A stretch of 43,223 nt of DNA from Pseudobdellovibrionaceae bacterium (lineage in GTDB: Bacteria > Bdellovibrionota > Bdellovibrionia > Bdellovibrionales > UBA1609), in contig JAUVAX010000018.1 of NCBI GenBank assembly GCA_030591685.1, positions 1-43,223 of the forward strand. Reading direction: 5' to 3'. Under the pieces are notes generated by a model, which saw only the letters and a program-made list of their open reading frames with translations, did no database searches and had not been told where the DNA came from. The translations under genes were made by a program, and so were the position numbers. Positions 9,009 through 43,223 of the stretch are shown one piece after another (position 1 is the first letter of the stretch; every line of letters starts with the position of its first letter).

Positions 9009-9392
9009 ATGAGCCGCGAGAACAATATATACGATCATGCGAAGAAGGTGCTATTTGTCGCCTTCTTTGCCTTCTCAATAAGTGCTTACTCTAAGGCCAC
9101 TGAAAATGTTTATAATTTTAAATTAAAAACCTGCAACAGTAAATCTTGTTATTTGCTAAAAACAAGTAAGGCTTCACGAGGTTTTTTAGATTCAATTTAT
9201 GTGTTAAATCGCTTACAGCTTTTGATTAAAAATAATAAAACTAAAAAAGTACAAACTGTTAATGCCAGCTCAGGGATTTATGACCCTGAATTAGACATGG
9301 TCCACATGCAGGCCCCTACCGACTGGAGCCCTGCTCAGCCCAGTGAGCTCATTGTTCACTTAAAAACTGGGGTTATTGAAGAGTTTAAATAA
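9009..9392 (+). CDS. Small secreted protein of unknown function
   Basis: A 127-residue protein with N-terminal hydrophobic segment VLFVAFFAFSISAYS (about residues 14-28), probably a signal peptide with a long charged n-region. The mature part is beta-rich, has two close cysteines (KTCNSKSC) and ends VHLKTGVIEEFK. It lies 11 nt after the preceding gene, so an operon is likely. Its last 36 bp (9357-9392) are part of the direct repeat that recurs at 10812 with a single-base deletion, so its 3' end marks the left side of an insertion. Confidence 0.65.
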   Translation: MSRENNIYDHAKKVLFVAFFAFSISAYSKATENVYNFKLKTCNSKSCYLLKTSKASRGFLDSIYVLNRLQLLIKNNKTKKVQTVNASSGIYDPELDMVHMQAPTDWSPAQPSELIVHLKTGVIEEFK

Positions 9393-9612
9393 TACTTTGC
9401 TTACCCTTTCATGTAATCCATAACGGAAACAAGGCTTAGTATTGAGGCTATGACATAGCCTACGATGCTGATGATAGGCATGTCCCCAGGCACTTTTGAA
9501 AGTGCTACAACAAGTGAGCTGCTTAAAATTAAGCTCCCAATAACAAGGCCTAAAAACAACAAATCTGACGAAGGGTTGAGGCTTCGCCTTAAGTCTTTGA
9601 TTTATTTTATTA
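9357..9612. repeat. Direct repeat, left copy (about 255 bp, about 80% identical to 10812-11066)
   Basis: This block contains the last 36 bp of the upstream secreted-protein gene followed by the 3' end of a ubiB gene on the opposite strand. The same arrangement recurs at 10812-11066. In the ubiB part I count about 40 differences over about 195 bp, mostly third positions. The two copies flank the gene at 9759-10802. The similarity stops at 9612, exactly where a GGTGCC motif begins. Confidence 0.85.
9401..9612 (-). pseudogene. ubiB C-terminal fragment (truncated)
   Basis: On the minus strand this encodes the last about 65 residues of a UbiB protein (KDLRRSLNP ... KVPGDMPIISIVGY ... DYMKG, stop at 9401-9403) in an unbroken frame. 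Against the intact gene at 10855-12519 it has about nine amino-acid changes, all mild (L/I, A/V, V/I, I/M) apart from H/P, S/D and R/G. Upstream, a GAA codon has become TAA and similarity ends, so there is no start and no kinase domain. The pattern of synonymous change implies that it diverged as part of a working gene and was truncated later. Confidence 0.85.
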
Positions 9613-9640
9613 GGTGCCGACGACTCTGAATTATTGAATT
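9613..9640 (+). other. GGTGCC...CTGAATT motif at the insertion edge
   Basis: GGTGCC (9613-9618) starts at the first base after the left repeat; CTGAATT (9626-9632) follows 7 nt later, then GAATT at 9636-9640. Similar pairs occur at 18005-18021 on the minus strand and in the palindrome at 22447-22479. Confidence 0.45.
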
Positions 9641-9758
9641 AAAGTAACAATTTATGTAATTTTGACACTCTATATAGTGGAGAACAAAAATACCTCAACT
9701 TCAAATCCAAATTTTGGTATGGACTTTAAAAGTTTAATATAAATATAGGGTCCAAGAC

Positions 9759-10802
9759 ATGAAAAAATTAATAATTATATTTATCAGTTTTTTTTCAGTA
9801 AATATGTTAGCTAATGAAATAAATCCTCACACTGACATGTCACGATTAACTAATGAAACACTGCTACTAACAGTTGTTAAGGACATACATATTCCACCGC
9901 CATTGATGAGCTTATACAGTAGTCTCATTGCCTTTAGTAAGGGTAACATTATTAACAGTAGATTCTTAAGTGGCTTTGTTAGCTCATGGAGTAAAGATCA
10001 ACGTTGTGAGATCTTTATAAACACTCCCATGCTGACCCCTGGTGTTATTAAGAAAGGTACGGTTTATAAAGTCGTGATGGAGTATGGCGGCCCTTCTCAC
10101 ATCGTATTTAATGCAAAAACTGTTTCAAATAATAAGCAGGGGAGCACACTAGGCCGATTTGCAATTTTGTGCTCAAAAGGTGATATCGAAAACGCCAACT
10201 CCTGGTATACAGAGCATGTTAAAATCAAGTCTTATTACATTTATGAATTTATTAATGAGTTCGGCGGAAGCCTTATTTTATCCGGGAAAACCCTTAATAA
10301 GGACCAGTTTAACAGGTATTCAGATACAGCCGAAAATAATACCCAAGCTTACCCCGAATCAACCTCCCCTATGATTAGTGAGATCATTTTCAAAAAACGC
10401 TTACTTCTTCCTATACAGGAAGCCATCGGATTTAATCGCATTCATAATAACAAATATTTTTTTAGAAAGGGCTTGTATCTCGAGCGTGGTCCGGCCAAAG
10501 CTTATTATGATTTACCCCACGAACAAGAAGATATAATGTGTGCCATTATATTTAAGCGTAGTTTAGAAAAAGAATTAATTATTAAAAGTGGTTTTTCATT
10601 TAAACCCAAGCGTTCTTATATTATAGGAAGTTCTATTTTACTAGAAGGGGGCGGTTACGATGAGGAACCAAACTCAAAAATACAATACATTCGTTGTGAT
10701 AACTTAAGACGCGATGCCGGTAAAGGATTTCAAATGACCAAAGACCTTGTTACTCAGGCTTTTGGGGTGGACAGGGTGATTGTTCGAGGACCGGTCAAAT
10801 AA
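9759..10802 (+). CDS. Secreted protein of unknown function with an internal duplication, within the insertion
   Basis: A 347-residue protein with signal peptide MKKLIIIFISFFSVNMLA cut before NEIN. Two segments resemble each other: about residues 85-140 (CEIFINTPMLTPGVIKKGTV ... FAILC) and about 262-310 (CAIIFKRSLEKELIIKSGF ... IQYIRC). Each begins and ends with a cysteine and has a central I-K-K/S-G turn, suggesting a duplicated small disulfide-closed beta domain. The gene is the only one between the two direct repeats, so it is the cargo of that insertion; copy B begins 10 nt after its stop. Between 9641 and 9758 there is only AT-rich leader. No family recognised. Confidence 0.7.
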   Translation: MKKLIIIFISFFSVNMLANEINPHTDMSRLTNETLLLTVVKDIHIPPPLMSLYSSLIAFSKGNIINSRFLSGFVSSWSKDQRCEIFINTPMLTPGVIKKGTVYKVVMEYGGPSHIVFNAKTVSNNKQGSTLGRFAILCSKGDIENANSWYTEHVKIKSYYIYEFINEFGGSLILSGKTLNKDQFNRYSDTAENNTQAYPESTSPMISEIIFKKRLLLPIQEAIGFNRIHNNKYFFRKGLYLERGPAKAYYDLPHEQEDIMCAIIFKRSLEKELIIKSGFSFKPKRSYIIGSSILLEGGGYDEEPNSKIQYIRCDNLRRDAGKGFQMTKDLVTQAFGVDRVIVRGPVK

Positions 10803-10811
10803 AGTCGTAAA

Positions 10812-11066
10812 CACTTAAAACTGGGGCTATTGAAGAGTTTAAATAATACTTTGCTTACCTTTTAATGTAATCGATCACAGCGACGAGGCTTAACACCGAT
10901 GCAATAGCATAGCCCACAATACTTAAGATAGGCATATCCCCAGGTACTTTTGAAAGTGCTACTACAAGTGAGCTACTTAAAATCAAACTCCCAATAACAA
11001 GGCCCAAAAACAGTAAGCTTGATGAGTGGTTTAAGCTGCGCCTTAAGTCTTTTATTTCTTTAATAC
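10812..11066. repeat. Direct repeat, right copy (pairs with 9357-9612)
   Basis: It starts with a 35-bp relic of the 3' end of the small secreted gene at 9009 (one A deleted, otherwise only one or two changes) and continues into the 3' end of the intact ubiB. Because this copy holds the relic of one gene and the intact end of the other, while the left copy does the reverse, the original junction was secreted gene - ubiB, with the cargo inserted between two versions of it. Confidence 0.85.
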
Positions 11067-17521: not shown

Positions 17522-17986
17522 ATGAAAAAGGTTTTATTTGTTTGTTTAGGTAATATTTGTCGCTCTCCGGCGGCCGAAGCTATATTTACTCAGCTCATTG
17601 AAAAAAACAACCTCACAGGCCAGGTCAGCTGTGACTCTGCGGGCACTTCACATATTCATGAAGGCACCCCCTCTGATCGCCGCATGACTGAACATGCGAA
17701 ACTGCGTAATTATGATATCACCAGCACCTCTAGACACTTTAACCCCCAGAGTGATTTTGAAACCTTTGACCTTATAATTACCATGGATAACCGCAATCAC
17801 AGCGACCTGTTTAATGTTGAGTTCTCTGAGGCGTATCACCATAAAATAAAAAAAATGACCGACTATTGCCAAAACCACGACGTCACACAAGTACCGGACC
17901 CCTATATAGGCGGCCCCCAGGGCTTCGAATTAGTTTTAAATATCCTCGAAGACGCTTGTGGTGAGCTTATAAAAACCTTTCGTTAA
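17522..17986 (+). CDS. Low-molecular-weight protein tyrosine phosphatase
   Basis: A cytoplasmic Cys-dependent phosphatase of the LMW-PTP / arsenate-reductase-like fold, 154 residues. The phosphate loop is CLGNICRSP with nucleophile C8, C13 and R14; the general acid is D126 in VPDPYIGG. All catalytic residues are present. Such enzymes dephosphorylate bacterial tyrosine kinases or small phosphoesters. The last 123 bp (17864-17986) are duplicated at 20938-21060 with eight substitutions and no gap, so this gene's 3' end marks the left border of the accessory block. Confidence 0.94.
   Translation: MKKVLFVCLGNICRSPAAEAIFTQLIEKNNLTGQVSCDSAGTSHIHEGTPSDRRMTEHAKLRNYDITSTSRHFNPQSDFETFDLIITMDNRNHSDLFNVEFSEAYHHKIKKMTDYCQNHDVTQVPDPYIGGPQGFELVLNILEDACGELIKTFR
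17864..17986. repeat. Direct repeat, left copy (phosphatase 3' end)
   Basis: These 123 bp form the 3' end of the LMW phosphatase. The copy at 20938-21060 is 115/123 identical (counted by eye) with no indels. The pair encloses the 2.95-kb block with the peptidase, lipoprotein and toxin-antitoxin genes. Confidence 0.9.
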
Positions 17987-18084: not shown

Positions 18085-18828
18085 ATGCTGTTAAAAGTTA
18101 TTTTTGGGTTATTGTTACTTTGTATTGATGCGTTTGCTGGTGAGCAATGTTTAGTTGGTGACCATTGGGTTGAATCTCATCATCGCCGGGCTTATGTAAG
18201 GTATGATGCTGTTCCCGTGAGGTCCACTACAGTGAACGGTCATTGCCGCAAGACCCCCCGTGGCTACGAAACATGGCATAGTAGGTTATCAAATGGTCGC
18301 CCAGGAATATGGGGCTATACGAGAGAGAAATCTAAAAAATGGTCCGTAGAAGAAACAGAACGATTTTTATCGGCAATTTCTGTTTTGCCAGATAAATTGG
18401 CTCACCTTAAGGGCGTATTTGTTTATCGAATGAAAGCGTCGAAAGATTTAGCAAACCCTGCAACCAGCAACGGAAGAGACATTGTATTGTACGACTTGGC
18501 CTTTCAGCATAAGGATTCATTGTCACAGATTATATCCCATGAATTATCTCACATCGTCTACAGGAAAACAGGGGTAGTTGATTTAGACAGGTTTAAGCGT
18601 TTGGCCGGCTGGAAACAGCTTAGCAAAGGCTCTAGCGTTTATACAGCGACCAAGAGGAAGATATTTATTCAGGAGGATAGTAGAGCCTCAATACCTGAGG
18701 ACTTCTCGAATCATTTAGAGCATTACCTATTTAAGAATGATTCACTGAAAGCTGAATCTCCATATGCATATAAATGGATTCAAAAAGAATTTGGTCTGAA
18801 ATTTAAATTCCAAGAGGAGGGGAAATGA
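18085..18828 (+). CDS. Putative secreted zinc metallopeptidase
   Basis: A 247-residue protein with signal peptide MLLKVIFGLLLLCIDAFA cut before GEQC. A zincin motif HELSH (H152, E153, H156) sits in QIISHELSHIVY, and a downstream SIPEDFSNHLEHYL (E205 onwards) could give the third zinc ligand and resembles the ExFAExF pattern of small zinc peptidases. Two N-terminal cysteines could form a disulfide. The next gene overlaps its stop by 4 nt, so the two are translated together. The gene lies inside the repeat-bounded block. No exact family can be named; protease function is inferred from the motif alone. Confidence 0.7.
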   Translation: MLLKVIFGLLLLCIDAFAGEQCLVGDHWVESHHRRAYVRYDAVPVRSTTVNGHCRKTPRGYETWHSRLSNGRPGIWGYTREKSKKWSVEETERFLSAISVLPDKLAHLKGVFVYRMKASKDLANPATSNGRDIVLYDLAFQHKDSLSQIISHELSHIVYRKTGVVDLDRFKRLAGWKQLSKGSSVYTATKRKIFIQEDSRASIPEDFSNHLEHYLFKNDSLKAESPYAYKWIQKEFGLKFKFQEEGK

Positions 18829-19496
18829 GAATTGTTTCAAGTGTCTTGATAAGTTTTTTTGTTGCAGGGTGCGTAACATTATTCAATAAAAGTAAATCAG
18901 AGTTCACTGTTGATGAGCTTTTAAAGCTAAAAATTAGCGTTGATACTAGTGAAGTCATCAAGAAACGATTGGGCAACCCTCACGAGAAAATATTTTACTC
19001 TAGTCAGGTTAAGGGAGGGGAGAAATCAGAGAAGTGGATTTATATTTTCGAGAAGACGCCTAAATTATGGTTATTTTTCAAGGGGGGCATATTGGAGCAC
19101 GCATCCTTGGGAGTATGGGATAGAGATAATGTTTCCTCTGTAGGAGGTTTATTGTCTCAGTTAGAAGGTCAGACTTGGTCTATAGTAAAGGAACCAGTAA
19201 GAAATCCTCATTCTATGCCTAATATGTGTATGCTGGTGAGTGAAAGACTTGGCATCAATGTAAAAGTTAACAGTATGATGAGGAGAGTGGATGAAATAAA
19301 TCTATGGAACCCTAGTATTAAAAGGAAAATAAAGTGGTTTGATGATTCGGTACCAGAATTTTGCATTGCCAACCACTGCTCAAATGTGACTGACCCTAAT
19401 GCGTGGGAACATAATCACTGTGAATGGCTAGAGGAAATAGTGGCTAGACAAACAGTGGGTGTAGGCAAAAATCCGGCAACCAGGGTGTCGAATTAA
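18825..19496 (+). CDS. Lipoprotein with a BamE/SmpA-like N-terminal region
   Basis: A 223-residue predicted lipoprotein with lipobox VAGC (MRIVSSVLISFFVAGC). Residues about 38-105 (VIKKRLGNPHEKIF ... KWIYIFEKTPKLWLFFKGGILEHASLG) have the G-x-P-x-x-x-x-x ... W-x-Y pattern of BamE/SmpA-type small envelope domains. The C-terminal half has five cysteines and a His-rich ANHCSN ... EHNHCEW stretch. It overlaps the peptidase gene by ATGA, implying coupled translation and possibly a shared periplasmic task. The BamE comparison is a by-eye resemblance. Confidence 0.65.
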   Translation: MRIVSSVLISFFVAGCVTLFNKSKSEFTVDELLKLKISVDTSEVIKKRLGNPHEKIFYSSQVKGGEKSEKWIYIFEKTPKLWLFFKGGILEHASLGVWDRDNVSSVGGLLSQLEGQTWSIVKEPVRNPHSMPNMCMLVSERLGINVKVNSMMRRVDEINLWNPSIKRKIKWFDDSVPEFCIANHCSNVTDPNAWEHNHCEWLEEIVARQTVGVGKNPATRVSN

Positions 19497-19666
19497 AAAC
19501 TTTTATTGGCCTAAATGTGATAAATTCTTTTATCGTTATAGTTTTCCCAGGCACGATTAACATTGGAGTGTCCCATTCAAATAGAGATGTTTTAGATGAG
19601 AGGCCTCTGGAGAGCATCAGATCAAAAAAACATTGTAAGCATGTGATACTATTAAATAAATTAGCT

Positions 19667-19687
19667 ATTATCCCTATATAGTATAAT
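19667..19687. promoter_or_regulatory. Operator-like repeat 1 upstream of the toxin-antitoxin pair
   Basis: ATTATCCCTATA starts a 21-bp site ending GTATAAT, with ATTAT/ATAAT outer arms and a central CTATATAG palindrome. TATAAT at 19682-19687 could be the promoter -10. It matches the site at 19725-19745 in 18 of 21 positions. Confidence 0.6.
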
Positions 19688-19724
19688 TACATAAAAACCT
19701 TTTGATTTAAGATACTTACATGTT

Positions 19725-19745
19725 ATTATCCCTATACGGCATAAT
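19725..19745. promoter_or_regulatory. Operator-like repeat 2 upstream of the toxin-antitoxin pair
   Basis: A second 21-bp site beginning ATTATCCCTATA and ending GCATAAT, 58 bp downstream of the first in the same orientation and 18 bp before the antitoxin start. The likely ligand is the XRE domain encoded just downstream, which would make this an autoregulatory region. The TATCC half resembles half of the HipB operator pattern. Confidence 0.6.
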
Positions 19746-19763
19746 AATGAATGGGAGATTTTG

Positions 19764-20321
19764 ATGAGTGAAGATCCAAGACAACCTAGCCGCCCTGCTA
19801 AGTTAACGGCTATAGGGGCAGCGCTTAAGGAAGAGCGCATGAGCCTTGGGATGACTCAAACTCAAGTCGCTGATCAGTTTGAAATAAGCTTAAAGGCTTT
19901 ACGTAATCTGGAGCAAGGAAAGGGGAGCGTTAGTTTTGCAAAAATTTTAAAAATACTAGCGTTATTTGGAAAAGAACTTCGAGTTGGTGATTTATTAATG
20001 TCTCCACGAAAGCGTTCTAAAACTCGACCTCGGCGTGAAAATATTTTGGAGATTCTGCAGCTAATTAAACCTATTTTAGGTAAAAAATTTAATATTCAGA
20101 GTCTAGCCTTGTTTGGCAGCTGTGCAAGAGACAAAGCTAAAAATAATTCCGACATTGACATTGCTGTGCAGTTTTCGAAGAAACCAAGCTTTACTCTCTT
20201 AGGCAAATTAACAGTTTTTTTAGAAACTCTTTTTGAGGGTAATAAAGTAGATTTGGTAGAGTTTGATAAAATGCTACCAGAGGTGCATAAAACGGCTCAA
20301 GAGGACTTTATTTATGTCTAA
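19764..20321 (+). CDS. mntA: XRE helix-turn-helix / MntA-type nucleotidyltransferase antitoxin
   Basis: The antitoxin of a HepT-MntA system: in characterised systems MntA uses ATP to AMPylate a tyrosine of the HEPN toxin. Residues about 12-70 form an XRE-type HTH (GAALKEERMSLGMTQTQVA ... ALRNLEQGKGSVSFAKI). Residues about 85-185 are a minimal nucleotidyltransferase with GSCAR (G118-R122) and catalytic D130 and D132 (SDIDIAV). Fusing the DNA-binding and transferase parts puts autoregulation and neutralisation in one chain. I chose ATG 19764 over the in-frame TTG at 19761; GGGAG precedes it. The toxin gene overlaps its stop. Symbol used by family only. Confidence 0.88.
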   Translation: MSEDPRQPSRPAKLTAIGAALKEERMSLGMTQTQVADQFEISLKALRNLEQGKGSVSFAKILKILALFGKELRVGDLLMSPRKRSKTRPRRENILEILQLIKPILGKKFNIQSLALFGSCARDKAKNNSDIDIAVQFSKKPSFTLLGKLTVFLETLFEGNKVDLVEFDKMLPEVHKTAQEDFIYV

Positions 20322-20691
20322 AAAATATAATAATAGTGCTTTTTCTTTAAAAGAAATGATTGGTGCCTGTGTAAAAATTCAAGAATATATATTGAACACT
20401 ACAGAAGAGGAATTCTTAAAAAAAAGAGAGTCCTTTGATGCTATATGTATGCAGTTTTCACATCTAGGAGAGCAAGTAAGCCGTCTAGAATCATCTTCAG
20501 ACAGAATAATTCAACATTATCCCGACGAAGTTAATTGGCACGGACTAAATGGTTTGAGAAACCGAATTGATCATGCCTATTTTGATGTGGATGCAGAAAT
20601 GATATGGAGTTTTGCAAATGATGAAGTTAAAGATCTTGAAGGTGAATTGCGAAGGATTTTAAAAAAGCGATTTGGGCAAAGTTACCCTTAG
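20314..20691 (+). CDS. hepT: HEPN-domain ribonuclease toxin (HepT, DUF86)
   Basis: The toxin of the pair: HepT proteins are all-helical HEPN RNases. The 125-residue protein has the RX4HXY signature RNRIDHAY (R82, H87, Y89); Y89 is the position AMPylated in characterised HepT proteins. The start ATG at 20314 overlaps the antitoxin stop by 8 nt and has AGAGGA upstream; an in-frame ATG at 20263 lies deep in the antitoxin gene and is less likely. All catalytic residues are present, so the toxin looks active and would need its antitoxin. Confidence 0.9.
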   Translation: MSKKYNNSAFSLKEMIGACVKIQEYILNTTEEEFLKKRESFDAICMQFSHLGEQVSRLESSSDRIIQHYPDEVNWHGLNGLRNRIDHAYFDVDAEMIWSFANDEVKDLEGELRRILKKRFGQSYP

Positions 20692-42776: not shown

Positions 42777-43094
42777 TTAACTTTCAGTGGGGTAGCCTGA
42801 GGCATGCCAAGCATCCATACCCAATTCAGCAATACATACAATATTTGTAAACCCTGAGCTCCTTAGTAACTCGGCGGCTCTTTGCGCCCTACCACCCATT
42901 TTACAGTGCACATAAATTGTTACATATTTTTTTAAATCTTCTAATTTTTCAGGCAATTGCCCTAACGGGATATTTAAGCTACTCGGCATATGCCCGCTGG
43001 CATACTCGTCTGGGTTCCTAACGTCTAAGATTATTTCTCCACTTTTAAGCTCATGTAGTTTTTCATGTAAATCATGAACTGATATTTTTGTCAC
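42777..43094 (-). CDS. Single-domain rhodanese (thiosulfate sulfurtransferase-like)
   Basis: A 105-residue cytoplasmic sulfurtransferase domain. The active-site loop is HCKMGGRA with persulfide-forming C64, within VTIYVHCKMGGRAQRAAELL, and the CH2A-like DVRNPDEYASGH lies near the N-terminus. It starts with GTG at 43094 behind AGGAGGGG. The 111-bp octamer repeat begins only 18 bp upstream and runs to the window edge, so its promoter lies within or beyond the repeat. 42582-42776, between it and the histidine kinase, shows no gene. A functional link to the persulfide dioxygenase at 32418 is possible. Confidence 0.92.
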   Translation of the reverse strand: MTKISVHDLHEKLHELKSGEIILDVRNPDEYASGHMPSSLNIPLGQLPEKLEDLKKYVTIYVHCKMGGRAQRAAELLRSSGFTNIVCIAELGMDAWHASGYPTES

Positions 43095-43112
43095 TCACCC
43101 CTCCTGTTTGTT

Positions 43113-43223
43113 TATTTAGTTATTTAGTTATTTAGTTATTTAGTTATTTAGTTATTTAGTTATTTAGTTATTTAGTTATTTAGTTATTTAGTTATTTAGT
43201 TATTTAGTTATTTAGTTATTTAG
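43113..43223. repeat. 8-bp tandem repeat, about 14 copies, at the window edge
   Basis: TATTTAGT is repeated head-to-tail 13.9 times with no sequence variation up to the last base of the window. On the opposite strand the unit reads ACTAAATA. The array is directly upstream of the rhodanese gene and its true length is not known. Confidence 0.95.

Follow-up and report, generated by a model that had tools for sequence, protein, structure and literature searches.

Gene X between diverged copies of a gene A/ubiB junction in a Pseudobdellovibrionaceae genome: probable arrival by one homologous exchange with a relative's DNA

In a 43,223-nucleotide stretch of a Pseudobdellovibrionaceae genome (contig JAUVAX010000018.1; hereafter the window), a single gene, X, lies between two diverged direct copies of the junction at which gene A and a ubiB-like gene meet. 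We propose that X probably arrived through a single homologous exchange with DNA of a relative, which carried the A/ubiB junction together with X and whose other end was joined non-homologously. Bacterial genomes commonly gain single genes without a mobile element, and the mechanism is usually untraceable. Where repeat copies differ at synonymous sites only, the source of the DNA is shown to be a related lineage with the same neighbouring gene, and the question of mechanism becomes a sequence count applicable to any genome.

Results

The direct repeat spans 254 nt at 82.7% identity (blastn within the window, E 6e-69), and a direct-repeat search of the window returned the same pair as 9363-9610 and 10817-11064 at 83%; a chance origin is excluded. 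Both copies cover the end-to-end junction of the convergent genes A and ubiB, and together they enclose X (Table 1). The left copy comprises the end of the intact gene A, a short spacer and a 67-codon 3' fragment of ubiB, which runs from its stop codon to 9610 and has no full reading frame upstream. In the right copy, a 1-nt deletion has frameshifted the 36-nt gene-A tail; the spacer is the one seen on the left, and the ubiB 3' end belongs to the intact gene. Each copy completes one target gene, the layout that single-crossover integration of a circle requires, and long direct repeats of the target flank the insert, as insertion with long target duplication requires. In the alignment, homology stops abruptly at 9610 and before 10812. 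The alignment bears out an earlier note on this DNA, which had described repeats of about 255 bp bearing a convergent-gene junction around one secreted gene, with the intact first gene and a broken ubiB on the left and a relic and the intact ubiB on the right.

Table 1. Features of the A/ubiB and phosphatase loci (window positions)
Feature	Position	Strand	Basis and remarks
Gene A	9009..9392	+	ORF; complete gene for a secreted protein of 127 aa, convergent with ubiB
Left repeat copy: gene-A tail, spacer, ubiB 3' fragment	9357..9610	.	Repeat search, alignment, blastn
Longest exact match between copies, 32 nt	9374..9405, also 10828-10859	.	Match observed; putative crossover placement
Broken ubiB 3' end	9401..9610	-	79% over residues 476-553; diverged from the intact gene under purifying selection
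Non-homologous stretch, ubiB fragment to X	9611..9758	.	Alignment ends at 9610; putative joining point 9610/9611
Gene X, cargo	9759..10802	+	ORF; 347-aa secreted orphan
Right repeat copy: 36-nt frameshifted gene-A relic, spacer, ubiB 3' end	10812..11064	.	Alignment, blastn
Intact ubiB-like gene, 554 aa	10855..12519	-	Best NCBIfam match TIGR01982 UbiB
Left repeat copy: intact low-molecular-weight phosphatase gene 3' end	17864..17985	+	Repeat search, alignment
Cargo: two orphans, then HTH-nucleotidyltransferase and HepT-like pair	18085..20691	+	ORFs, Pfam
Right repeat copy: relic of phosphatase 3' end, homology stops at stop codon	20938..21059	+	Repeat search, alignment

A false joining of two strains during assembly is highly improbable as the origin of this layout. 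The assembly does consist of 98 contigs, and the repeat of another locus (L060, below) contains a 113-nt exact match; however, the longest exact match at the ubiB locus is 32 nt and the copies are 17% apart, too little to mislead the usual assemblers, and the listed contamination is 0.72%.

Gene A has only a weak KTSC-like Pfam match, under the cut-off, and the intact ubiB matches TIGR01982 at 3e-118, yet under the NCBIfam equivalog cut-off. X has a signal-peptide-like start. It showed no match in Pfam, NCBIfam, PDB, viral contigs, plasmids, phages or 140 other genomes of the order, and neither a donor locus nor a circle for X was found among the order genomes, plasmids, phages and viral contigs. 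Since X has no relatives there, it is its position that points to a foreign origin. In relatives in which both genes were found, gene A does not adjoin ubiB; a search of genome contigs confirmed no named relative for either gene.

Between the ubiB fragment and the intact gene, 42 of 207 nucleotides (20%) and 9 of 68 residues (13%) are different, close to the 20% and 14% given in the earlier note. Over the 68 codons, 29 of 48.3 synonymous sites differ as against 12 of 155.7 non-synonymous sites, giving a dS of 1.2 and a dN of 0.08. After duplication within a genome and decay of the fragment, mostly non-synonymous changes are expected, and a model in which one copy has been decaying since duplication is at odds with the observed synonymous bias (p about 1e-5). 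Because the differences are mainly synonymous, the fragment must have belonged to a working gene for most of its divergence. It descends from a functional, diverged gene, as the earlier note had claimed.

The fragment and the intact ubiB share 59 of 68 residues, as against only 32-36 of about 68 for the nearest relative compared, G005. The copies are thus far closer to each other than to G005, and the source would be a distinct lineage close to this one, or else a second gene that this lineage once had. Base composition (GC content) marks neither repeat copy as foreign. Where a relative has a strong ubiB match, it has just one, with no more than remote homologues beside it, and this speaks against an old tandem pair. 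If A-ubiB had simply been duplicated in tandem, with deletions and an independent insertion of X to follow, direct repeats with partial genes could also result, as a deletion inside a tandem pair shows; such a history would, however, take three events or more, both ubiB copies would have had to stay functional until dS reached 1.2, and X is not duplicated. Together with the single strong match per relative, this makes it very improbable.

Divergence is uneven along the repeat. Over the roughly 48 nt of gene-A tail and spacer, which also hold the longest exact match, the copies show one substitution and one indel; divergence there (1/48) is much lower than over the ubiB part (42/207; p 0.001 by Fisher's test, p 0.005 by a cruder position count). 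The signal is moderate, because low divergence recurs at 9487-9548, inside conserved ubiB codons. The gene-A tail is too alike for a plain comparison of donor and recipient, and a crossover or conversion tract probably lay there. Either the exchange fell within the gene-A tail or spacer and repair then equalised both copies, or the gene-A tail is native in each copy and the foreign part is limited to the ubiB fragment, as when incoming DNA joins a sister chromosome. A shared terminator constraining the gene-A tail was rejected, since folding is ordinary (z 0.68, 1.83 and -0.74).

As the earlier note had reported, the window holds a second locus of like architecture. A direct repeat of 122 nt at 94% identity lies at the phosphatase gene (Table 1); its copies show 4 synonymous and 3 non-synonymous differences (p 0.2), a count that decides nothing. 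At the far end of the window, an 8-nt tandem repeat (TTTAGTTA) occupies 43083-43223, up to the contig end.

About 1.08 Mb of the 2.66-Mb genome (about 40%, window included) was searched for local direct repeats. In this portion we found five further insertions of genes or toxin-antitoxin pairs between diverged direct repeats, a sample judged by eye that gives no rate estimate and for which no matched control set was scored. At L060:111-1530 (contig C24), a RelE/HigA-type pair has on one side the intact 3' end of a TIGR03545 gene and on the other a 213-nt relic of it; the repeat is 97.7% identical, and all five differences are synonymous (5/5, p 0.003). Another RelE/HigA-type toxin-antitoxin pair lies between 51-nt intergenic repeats, 94% identical, at L093:9344-10127 (C57), and an acetyltransferase gene lies between duplicated sequence adjoining a tRNA-Ser gene at L081:8348-9432 (C45). 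At L044:963-1998 (C7), an acetyltransferase is enclosed by two repeats of ~210 nt with inverted ends (TACGGACA...TGTCCGTA), of which the genome yielded no further copy; they could instead be two small transposon-like elements. At L137:12458-13846 (C81), two short ORFs, at least one of them with a signal-peptide-like start, lie between 76-nt terminator-like repeats that are 84% identical. Separately, at L051:2387-3192 (contig C14), the sequences after a Fic gene and after a DUF454 gene share an 87-nt repeat at 76% identity.

In 390 kb sampled from the closest relative, G005, no clear case was seen outside an Rhs locus, and the repeats were mostly tandem paralogues and REP-like elements besides that one locus. 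The recurrence suggested in the earlier note is seen, as a pattern, beyond the two loci of the window. Tentatively, this lineage might repeatedly gain single genes or toxin-antitoxin pairs without a recombinase, by taking up related-species DNA through one homologous exchange at gene ends and keeping diverged repeats as the record; we put this forward as a possibility well short of an even chance.

Integrating phages and islands insert in gene 3' ends and bring a replacement end. A site-specific element of this sort, lacking a recombinase of its own, could account for the phosphatase and L060 cases, where the homology stops at the stop codon, but at ubiB the homology passes the stop codon into the neighbouring gene. 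Moreover, the insert has no recombinase, inspection by eye revealed no identical core common to the loci, and cargo and repeats are different at every locus, which leaves this explanation very doubtful. An integron gene cassette was rejected: no integrase match exceeded the TIGR02249 cut-off, and only Xer-like partial matches were seen, as in all control genomes.

Discussion

We hypothesize that gene X came on DNA of a related lineage that also bore its own A/ubiB junction, and that one homologous exchange within the junction anchored the incoming DNA, probably in or beside the 32-nt identical stretch. The other end may have been secured in two ways. The fragment may have been ligated into a circle before a single crossover integrated it; alternatively, the free end of the fragment may have been joined to the sister chromosome, that is, homology-facilitated illegitimate recombination with duplication. 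The joining point would lie near 9610/9611 or 10802/10812. Under either form, X would come to lie between two junction copies, each lacking the distal part of one of the two genes, while the host keeps a whole copy of both. We make no choice between the two forms. ComEC-like and DprA-like genes are present in the genome; they are compatible with DNA uptake and are no evidence for it.

A single exchange is favoured because each gene is whole on one side and truncated on the other, and because L060 is a like case with only synonymous differences. The near-identical gene-A tail counts against a simple exchange, so that a conversion tract or the chromosome-joining route is needed. An exact single-crossover product of a circle, as the earlier note had proposed, agrees with the layout, for which there is an experimental precedent (PMC3240628), whereas the even divergence expected of donor and recipient copies was not observed (p 0.001); a conversion tract could reconcile the two.

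The uneven divergence could also be explained by an insertion from within the genome with long target duplication, after which the 3' end of the intact ubiB was replaced by an allele of another lineage, leaving the left fragment as the old native end. This one scheme covers both the near-identical gene-A tail, native in both copies, and the diverged ubiB part, and recombined alleles would likewise yield synonymous-only differences, as in L060. However, two events are required at the ubiB locus and again at L060, and GC content singles out neither copy. We consider this course rather unlikely, and the single exchange with a relative's DNA remains our preferred reading.

The A/ubiB locus adds one more case of insertion with long target duplication, a class described from Helicobacter pylori genomes by Nobusato et al. 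2000, as cited in later papers (PMC1643837, PMC3031569). There too a gene module lies between long direct repeats of its target; the Helicobacter case came to light when genomes were compared and was connected with self-maintaining restriction-modification modules, and here toxin-antitoxin pairs occupy some of the loci. Unlike in Helicobacter, no empty site was found among the relatives compared, all of them from other genera, and the coding repeats differ mainly at synonymous sites, which points to allelic copies from a related lineage. This synonymous bias as a sign of a related-lineage flank, and the apparent frequency of such insertions in one genome, may be new.

Such an exchange is a known kind of event, and it seems to have occurred more than once in this genome. 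In E. coli, linear DNA circularised by ligation integrates by a single crossover and leaves duplications of 109-950 nt (PMC3240628). The insert is flanked by a partial duplication in both systems, of 254 nt here; in contrast, that study used a laboratory plasmid with identical homology, and the present case is a natural event at homology about 20% divergent. For natural transformation, homology-facilitated illegitimate recombination and interchromatid integration have been described, and the latter has been shown in pneumococcus (PMC3784515). Homology-facilitated illegitimate recombination has also been put forward to explain type VI effector and Rhs loci (PMC5361080); with these the A/ubiB locus would have in common a single homologous anchor, a non-homologous end opposite it and the displaced 3' end of a gene. 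Unlike at those loci, the cargo here is no effector module attached to the target gene, and no part of the target is lost. The Rhs locus of G005 (contig C8, L105:1-3311) has Rhs-like core ends repeated at 85% with differing tips, the known displaced-tip pattern.
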